Assembly (NCBI GenBank): GCA_021296255.1
Contig: JAGWAU010000002.1
Location: forward strand, 1 to 64,000
Origin: Alphaproteobacteria bacterium
GTDB lineage: Bacteria; Pseudomonadota; Alphaproteobacteria; UBA2966
Length of the DNA: 64,000 bases
Direction: 5' to 3'
Shown here: positions 7,984 through 9,815 of the stretch, one piece after another
How the letters are laid out: every line of letters begins with the position of its first letter
Position numbering within the stretch: position 1 is the stretch's first letter
Notes under the pieces: model-generated
Seen by the model: only the letters and a program-made list of their open reading frames with translations
Database searches by the model: none
What the model was told of the DNA's origin: nothing
Translations under genes and position numbers: made by a program

Positions 7984-8376
7984 CTAGTTGATCAACTTCT
8001 CCTGATATGGGCTGTCCAGCGAGAACGCAGGAATGTCGATTTCGAATCTCTCCCCCTGCTCCGATTCCATCTCGTAGCGGCCTAGCATGATGCCGGACGG
8101 TGTGGGCAGCGGCGTTCCACTCGTGTACTCAAAGGACTGACCTGGTTGCAGAATTGGTTGCTCGCCAATCACCCCCGCACCACGGACTTCTTGGATGCGG
8201 CCCGCCGCGTCCGTGATATGCCAATACCGTGACCGGAGCTGTACGGTTTCCGATCCCTGGTTCTCGATGCGGACCCAATAGGCCCACACGTAATGATCGT
8301 CCGACGGCGAGGACTGGTCGTCGAGGTACATGGGCTTGACCGTGACCTCGATCGACCGCGTCTTCTGGCTGTACAT
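7984..8376 (-). CDS. apaG: ApaG protein
   Basis: A 130-residue single-domain protein of the ApaG family, a fibronectin-III-like beta sandwich. In enterobacteria it was linked to Co2+/Mg2+ homeostasis, but the biochemical role is unsettled. Family motifs seen are [10 protein letters not shown], the [10 protein letters not shown] segment, [11 protein letters not shown] and the [20 protein letters not shown] block. The ATG at 8376 gives a normal length. The region upstream (8377-8628) holds only the tRNA gene leader on the other strand. Confidence 0.95.
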
Positions 8377-8628: not shown

Positions 8629-8702
8629 GCGGGCGTAGCTCAATGGCAGAGCAGAAGCTTCCCAAGCTTACGACGGGGGTTCGATTCCCCTCGCCCGCTC
8701 CA
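8629..8702 (+). tRNA. tRNA-Gly (anticodon CCC), CCA end encoded
   Basis: A complete cloverleaf can be drawn. The acceptor stem GCGGGCG pairs with CGCCCGC, the D stem is GCTC/GAGC, and the anticodon loop TTCCCAA carries CCC. The T arm has the TTCGATT loop. The discriminator T at 8699 is followed by genomic CCA (8700-8702). The outermost anticodon-stem pair is G-A, which I recall as common in alphaproteobacterial tRNA-Gly(CCC). A weak promoter-like pair, TTCAAG (8571) and TATCTA (8594) 17 bases apart, lies just upstream. Confidence 0.96.
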
Positions 8703-8721: not shown

Positions 8722-8943
8722 TCAGCCCGGGACCAGACCGGCGGTTTCCTTGTCCGTGGGAAAACGCCTGAGTTCCTGCTTGGAGAACTTCAACACGCCG
8801 TCCACGGTGACTTCGAAGTCACCCGTGTTCCCTTTTACGAGCTGGACATTGGCTTCTGGCACTTTGGCCAAGATCTGTTCCCTCGCACGGAGGGCCCTAG
8901 GCTCGTAGTTTCAAACTGAGCAGTAAGCGATCTCGATGTTCAT
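8722..8943 (-). CDS. SelW/Rdx-family selenoprotein, in-frame UGA read as selenocysteine
   Basis: A small gene of 73 codons, open from ATG 8943 to TGA 8722-8724 except for one TGA at codon 11 (8911-8913). The residues before and after it read MNIEIAYCSV and then NYEPRALRAR, so the TGA is the last position of a C-S-V-U motif (Cys8, Sec11). This is exactly the CxxC/CxxU redox site of the Rdx family (SelW, SelT, SelH). The rest also fits: the GDFEVTVDG strand, LKFSKQE and FPTDKE near the C-terminus, at normal family length. An in-frame stop at 8959-8961 leaves ATG 8943 as the only start; AGGAG lies 12 bases upstream. The role is inferred as a thioredoxin-like thiol or selenol oxidoreductase. It converges on tRNA-Gly. 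Confidence 0.85.
8880..8913 (-). promoter_or_regulatory. candidate bacterial SECIS hairpin after the UGA
   Basis: On the coding strand, 16 bases after the UGA, CCCTC pairs perfectly with GAGGG (plus-strand 8890-8894 with 8880-8884) around a five-base loop CGTGC (8885-8889) that contains GU. Bacterial SECIS elements are stem-loops inside the coding region just after the UGA, with a G (often GU) exposed in the apical loop for SelB binding. Position and loop both fit; the stem is short at five pairs. Confidence 0.6.
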
Positions 8944-9122
8944 ACTCGGTCGTGTCTCCTAGGAACAAGCCTACAAGGTTACAGAATCAAGCGTGCTGGA
9001 GCCAACGGTTCTTGGTGCTTCCAGCTTGCGGTTGGCGGCTTGGGCATGAATATGAGATGGACGACCATAACGTGGTGGCCGGGATCTGAGAACCTGTCGC
9101 GGTGCTCCCTCACGAAAGCTGA

Positions 9123-9815
9123 TCAGCGATCTTCGTACAACGTCTCGCCGTCTTTGATGCAGCTCGCAACGAGAATTTCGCTGCACAAGCCACCGGGACA
9201 CACGACGCGGCGAAATCGGGCTTCCCAGTAATCCGCGTAGATATATCGCCACAGCCTGATCGGCCGGCAACCGCCCACAAGGGCTGGGCTGATCAGGTAG
9301 GTGAGTCGCCACAGCCCTGTCGCTAGCTTGGCTCCGAATCCATGGGCCGCGGTCAACGACGCAAGACACAACAATCCGCCCGGTCGCAAGATACGGTGCG
9401 CCTCTTCAAGTAGTTTGTGGATGTCGTTGGTGCTCAAAAGATCGCATACGTATGTACAAATGAACCTGTCGAAGCTGGAATCATCGACTTCGAGATCCAT
9501 TTCTCCGGTGGTTAGATAAACCTCGGTCCGCGATGGCCACTGCGCCAATCGCTCGCGTGTCAACCCGAACATGGTGTCGCTGACATCCACGGCCGTATAG
9601 GTTGTCTGCTCCGACAAATGATCGCACAACAGGCGTTCGGCTAAGCGGCCGGTACCGCATCCAAACTCGAATACAGCAGTCGCCTCGCCTAGTTCGGCGT
9701 TCTCGATCAGTAGCTCGAGGGGGCGTTCCTCGTAGAGCGTGCTGCGGTCCTGTCTGGTTCCGAATCGGTCGTAAAACCTTTTTGCCTGGGCATGTGAGAG
9801 CGTGCGCACGGTCAA
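9123..9815 (-). CDS. class I SAM-dependent methyltransferase, substrate unknown
   Basis: A 230-residue Rossmann-fold methyltransferase. Motif I is FEFGCGTGRLAE (about residues 49-60), the acidic motif II is TAVDVS, and the post-motif LRPGG lies near residue 147. The N-terminal block KRFYDRFGTRQD resembles UbiE/Methyltransf_11 enzymes that methylate small molecules or lipids. It has no ATG: it starts at TTG 9815 or GTG 9809, directly against the stop codon of the lipid-kinase gene, so the two are translationally linked. The coupling suggests a lipid or membrane substrate, but that is inference. Confidence 0.85.
   Translation of the reverse strand: MTVRTLSHAQAKRFYDRFGTRQDRSTLYEERPLELLIENAELGEATAVFEFGCGTGRLAERLLCDHLSEQTTYTAVDVSDTMFGLTRERLAQWPSRTEVYLTTGEMDLEVDDSSFDRFICTYVCDLLSTNDIHKLLEEAHRILRPGGLLCLASLTAAHGFGAKLATGLWRLTYLISPALVGGCRPIRLWRYIYADYWEARFRRVVCPGGLCSEILVASCIKDGETLYEDR

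Follow-up and report, generated by a model that had tools for sequence, protein, structure and literature searches.

Evidence for a SelW-like selenoprotein gene with a conserved in-frame UGA and a covarying SECIS-like hairpin in an alphaproteobacterial genome

Background

Does a short reading frame that is interrupted by a single TGA encode a small selenoprotein, or has it simply been broken by a stop codon? The window analysed here, a stretch of DNA of 64,000 nucleotides, raises this question on its minus strand, where an earlier note, made from the letters alone, had proposed a SelW-like gene whose UGA specifies selenocysteine (Sec) and is followed by a SECIS-like hairpin. The same note had named two observations that would speak for a pseudogene instead, namely a genome without selA, selB, selC and selD, and relatives with other stop codons or frameshifts at random positions. 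The question matters for annotation, as the gene is omitted by standard callers and is easy to overlook.

The reading frame and its family

Translation reproduced the frame of 73 minus-strand codons (window 8943-8722) that the earlier note had described as broken only by one TGA. This TGA is codon 11, a further TGA at 8722-8724 serves as the stop, and the translation, with U for Sec, reads MNIEIAYCSVUNYEPRALRAREQILAKVPEANVQLVKGNTGDFEVTVDGVLKFSKQELRRFPTDKETAGLVPG. The upstream in-frame stop that had been invoked to set the start at ATG 8943 was found as well; it is a TAG, 18 nt upstream of the ATG (Table 1).

Table 1. Features of the selW-like locus (positions in the window)
Feature	Position	Strand	Basis
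selW-like selenoprotein gene (putative)	8722..8943	-	translation, Pfam Rdx, TIGR02174, 30 UGA-bearing relatives
in-frame UGA read as selenocysteine (predicted), U11 of the CSVU motif	8911..8913	-	same codon in 31/31 genes
TGC codon, resolving Cys C8 of CxxU (predicted)	8920..8922	-	invariant in alignment
bacterial SECIS apical hairpin (candidate)	arms 8894-8890 + 8884-8880, loop CGUGC 8889-8885	-	fixed position, covariation
in-frame TAG stop upstream, bounds the reading frame	8959..8961	-	

For the profile searches the TGA was read as Sec and entered as Cys for the programs. Searched in this way against the Rdx family, as had been suggested, the read-through protein scores well over the cut-off of Pfam Rdx PF10262 (64.3 bits, cut-off 22.6, E 1.2e-17), the match covering profile positions 1-69 of 74, and it also matches TIGR02174, CXXU_selWTH (52.3 bits, cut-off 34.2). 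The SelW-like reading follows from this family match, which extends across the whole protein and spans the UGA. The claimed CxxU site, Y-C-S-V-U at residues 7-11, lies near the N-terminus and aligns with the CxxC of Cys homologues, so that the assignment to the Rdx/SelW family and its redox motif both stand. The best-scoring curated model is NF041051, SelTWH_Campy, with 84.7 bits, a score below its equivalog cut-off of 88, and the protein is therefore filed in the broader Rdx/SelW family only and not as an NF041051 equivalog. Of the proteins with a solved structure, C17orf37 (2ljk), Agrobacterium Atu0228 (2fa8) and mouse selenoprotein W (2npb) give matches.

Conservation of the UGA codon

Seen in one genome only, such a frame could equally be a Cys-form Rdx pseudogene in which a premature stop codon had arisen. 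In the relatives and the class searched, however, 30 further genomes carry the gene with an internal TGA, at 41-73% identity, and in all 31 extracted genes the codon with the TGA is identical in position and is preceded by a conserved Y/F-C-x-x. These genes come from many families of the class and none has another type of stop at that codon; the stops are thus not randomly scattered, as the earlier note had expected them to be in a pseudogene. The coding sequence goes on past the UGA in the 30 relatives, and in the alignment the downstream half is conserved too (GxFEVTVDG, FSK, GRFP), which likewise argues against a decaying gene. One member of the set, L122 (G200), has an extra TAA inside the aligned stretch, where reading ends near the normal C-terminus.

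Eleven genomes in the same class sampling contain only a lower-scoring Cys form that lacks the internal stop, and Cys homologues have TGC or TGT in place of the UGA codon. In a tree of the family the Sec and Cys forms parted once in 16% of the bootstrap trees. Since a phylum sample of 398 genomes yielded the UGA form only in the window's genome and in one already known carrier, the UGA form has a patchy distribution within this class in the samples examined. The gene is also absent from the same-genus genome G001 and from the same-family genome G005, both of which have selA, and is therefore not essential to the lineage.

A covarying hairpin downstream of the UGA

The SECIS-like hairpin that had been proposed from the window (CCCTC-CGTGC-GAGGG) was recovered with its 5-bp stem and CGTGC loop beginning 16 nt after the TGA; it has a small apical loop with a G and lies directly downstream of the UGA, as is typical of a SECIS-like element. 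When the gene of the window is considered alone, 74% of its codon-resampled versions contain some stem of at least 5 bp nearby, though only 1.7% have a stem at the exact place of the hairpin. Moreover, folding this one sequence by itself gives a z-score of about 0, the energy being no lower than that of shuffles. In a single sequence the hairpin is thus weak evidence, and its support comes from its conservation and covariation in the 31 genes.

Every one of these 31 genes has CGTGC or CGTGT as its loop, with an unchanged offset, and 97.4% of the stem cells are paired. The stem is perfect in 27 genes, whereas 1000 trials of synonymous codon resampling yielded 0.96 perfect stems on average and never more than 6; the resampling is an approximation, as it applies the window's codon usage to every genome and the genes, being related, are not independent of each other. 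In the other four genes one stem pair is broken. Changes on both sides of the stem occur in 8 cells and affect two of the five pairs (CG to GC or UA in pair 2, UA to GC in pair 4), and the covariation amounts to 0.170 as opposed to 0.033 when shuffled and at most 0.031 with slid partners. The claim of a SECIS-like element therefore holds at the level of the gene set.

The codons used in the hairpin are in line with this. The Arg codon CGT of the loop is invariant and that of the stem is mostly AGG, neither of which is a preferred Arg codon here. Several of the compensatory changes even come at an amino-acid cost, with AGG (Arg) becoming AGC (Ser) in L121, L124, L135 and L141 and CTC (Leu) becoming CGC (Arg) in L126 and L131, and such changes point to selection on the RNA. 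Of the 62 Cys homologues that served as a control set, which come for the most part from other groups and were returned by a scan of genome contigs with Cys for U, none has the stem at this place. Covariation of the hairpin is a further argument against a pseudogene, and with UGA and hairpin both conserved across genomes we reject that reading, to which we would give a vanishingly small chance of being correct.

The Sec machinery and the decoding of the UGA

But is the UGA read as selenocysteine? An open frame alone does not name the residue that is inserted, and a non-Sec residue could be placed there by decoding as Trp or by near-cognate read-through. The genome of the window (4.25 Mb, 97% complete) contains all four of the genes whose absence had been named as telling against a selenoprotein. 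SelA (C64:19487-20602, 506 bits), SelB (C64:20668-22554, 436 bits) and tRNA-Sec (selC, C64:22622, 71.7 bits, anticodon UCA) are contiguous on one contig, with SelA and SelB scoring over their cut-offs and SelB comprising the GTPase, beta-barrel and C-terminal winged-helix domains; SelD (309 bits) is on a different contig.

Two details of this machinery may be added. SelD (L031:22-2529, G000:C65) carries a pyridine nucleotide-disulphide oxidoreductase domain at its N-terminus, giving an Ndh-SelD protein of about 835 aa, and this fusion is already known from marine metagenomes (PMC2398784). The selC gene (L025:8618-8713, G000:C64) begins about 4 nt past the selB stop codon and so lies directly after selB without overlap, whereas an overlap is reported in some Alphaproteobacteria.

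Of the 30 relatives that carry the UGA gene, 29 have SelA; it was not found in G025, whose genome is 77% complete, and was seen only in part in G362. A full-length SelA was present in one of the 11 relatives that have the Cys form only. The presence of the Sec form thus follows the Sec machinery across relatives, which would not be expected of a pseudogene either. Besides the four sel genes, the Cys that homologues carry at the UGA position argues against a non-Sec residue, as does a hairpin that is kept in the UGA form and missing from the Cys form. In addition, the selW-like gene itself ends in TGA, which shows that TGA is not simply recoded. Given the Cys in homologues, the Sec machinery and the UGA-form-specific hairpin, we reject decoding as a non-Sec residue and consider it very improbable.

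Selenocysteine insertion in this organism would then proceed in the standard bacterial manner: SelB carrying Sec-tRNA(Sec) would bind the mRNA hairpin close behind the UGA, and the ribosome would insert selenocysteine at this codon instead of stopping. The predicted product is a 73-residue protein of thioredoxin-like fold with a Cys-x-x-Sec redox site and is most likely a small thiol/selenol oxidoreductase, a role suggested by its family and motif. By sequence comparison, the family, the conservation of the UGA, the covariation of the hairpin and the completeness of the Sec machinery are established, and positions 8722-8943 are almost certainly a functional selenoprotein gene of the SelW-like type (Rdx family).

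Genomic neighbourhood

The gene is flanked by the protein genes for ApaG (7984-8376) and a methyltransferase (9123-9815), and a tRNA-Gly(CCC) (8629-8702) on the other strand follows it closely downstream. In the genomes compared, for most of which the comparison covered about 1.5 kb on each side, neighbours are common only to the same-genus genome G002, which shares ArgE, TrkH, FolE, ApaG, the methyltransferase, a lipid kinase, a SixA-like protein and a sugar isomerase. The pairing with tRNA-Gly is, among the relatives checked, also kept only in G002. As shared neighbours are limited to this genome, no functional link of the gene to its neighbours is inferred.

Formate dehydrogenase and the use of Sec

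A 2006 paper reported that every alpha- or betaproteobacterium known at the time to use Sec had selABC beside fdhA as the sole selenoprotein gene (PMC1794560). The present genome differs from this arrangement in that no fdhA adjoins selABC, none being evident in the surrounding 16 kb, and in that SelW would be a selenoprotein. Matches to the formate dehydrogenase alpha subunit are found elsewhere (G000:C63:66701-68752 and G000:C130:2583-5102), both without an in-frame stop, and the enzyme represented by the best-scoring match hence appears not to need Sec. It is conceivable, though on balance we doubt it, that this lineage retains the Sec machinery for the sake of small redox proteins with CxxU, SelW among them, and not for formate dehydrogenase; this reading is weakened by G001, which has selA but no SelW match.

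The mechanism is not new. The 31 genes nevertheless provide a clean comparative case of a hairpin that is fixed within a coding region and whose compensatory changes sometimes alter the protein, and the set should be useful for annotation and for the calibration of SECIS models.

Comparison with known SelW-like proteins

Mouse selenoprotein W is a distant relative by sequence (E 0.0081) within the Rdx family and has a CxxU motif as well, but its SECIS is of the eukaryotic type and lies in the 3' UTR, unlike the hairpin just after the UGA in the window. By sequence, Agrobacterium Atu0228 (E 1.3e-4) falls into the same fold family and represents the Rdx proteins without Sec; the Cys homologues sampled carry Cys where the window protein has Sec, and they lack the hairpin. 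Closer in kind is Campylobacter jejuni SelW (CJnc60), likewise a small UGA-containing SelW that was overlooked by annotation, whose full-length translation has been confirmed by Ribo-seq and proteomics (PMC11955535); it comes from a different class, and the score of the window protein narrowly misses the NF041051 cut-off. In Epsilonproteobacteria, too, SelW-like genes were wholly missed by annotation (PMC4607533).

That the family itself is not new, as the earlier note had acknowledged, is borne out by C. jejuni SelW and by the marine surveys that precede this work. SelW-like selenoproteins account for 48 sequences in the Sargasso Sea survey (PMC1088965) and, as CxxU proteins, form the most numerous family in GOS with 427 sequences (PMC2398784); a 2026 review tabulates them, with CxxU, under PF10262 (PMC13188914). 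SelW-like CxxU selenoproteins dominate marine selenoproteomes. With these bacterial proteins the window gene shares the Pfam family, the CxxU site and a SECIS hairpin with an apical-loop G near the UGA, and it shows no difference in kind from them, being a copy in another genome. In the light of these earlier reports we regard it as a well-supported addition to a known selenoprotein family.
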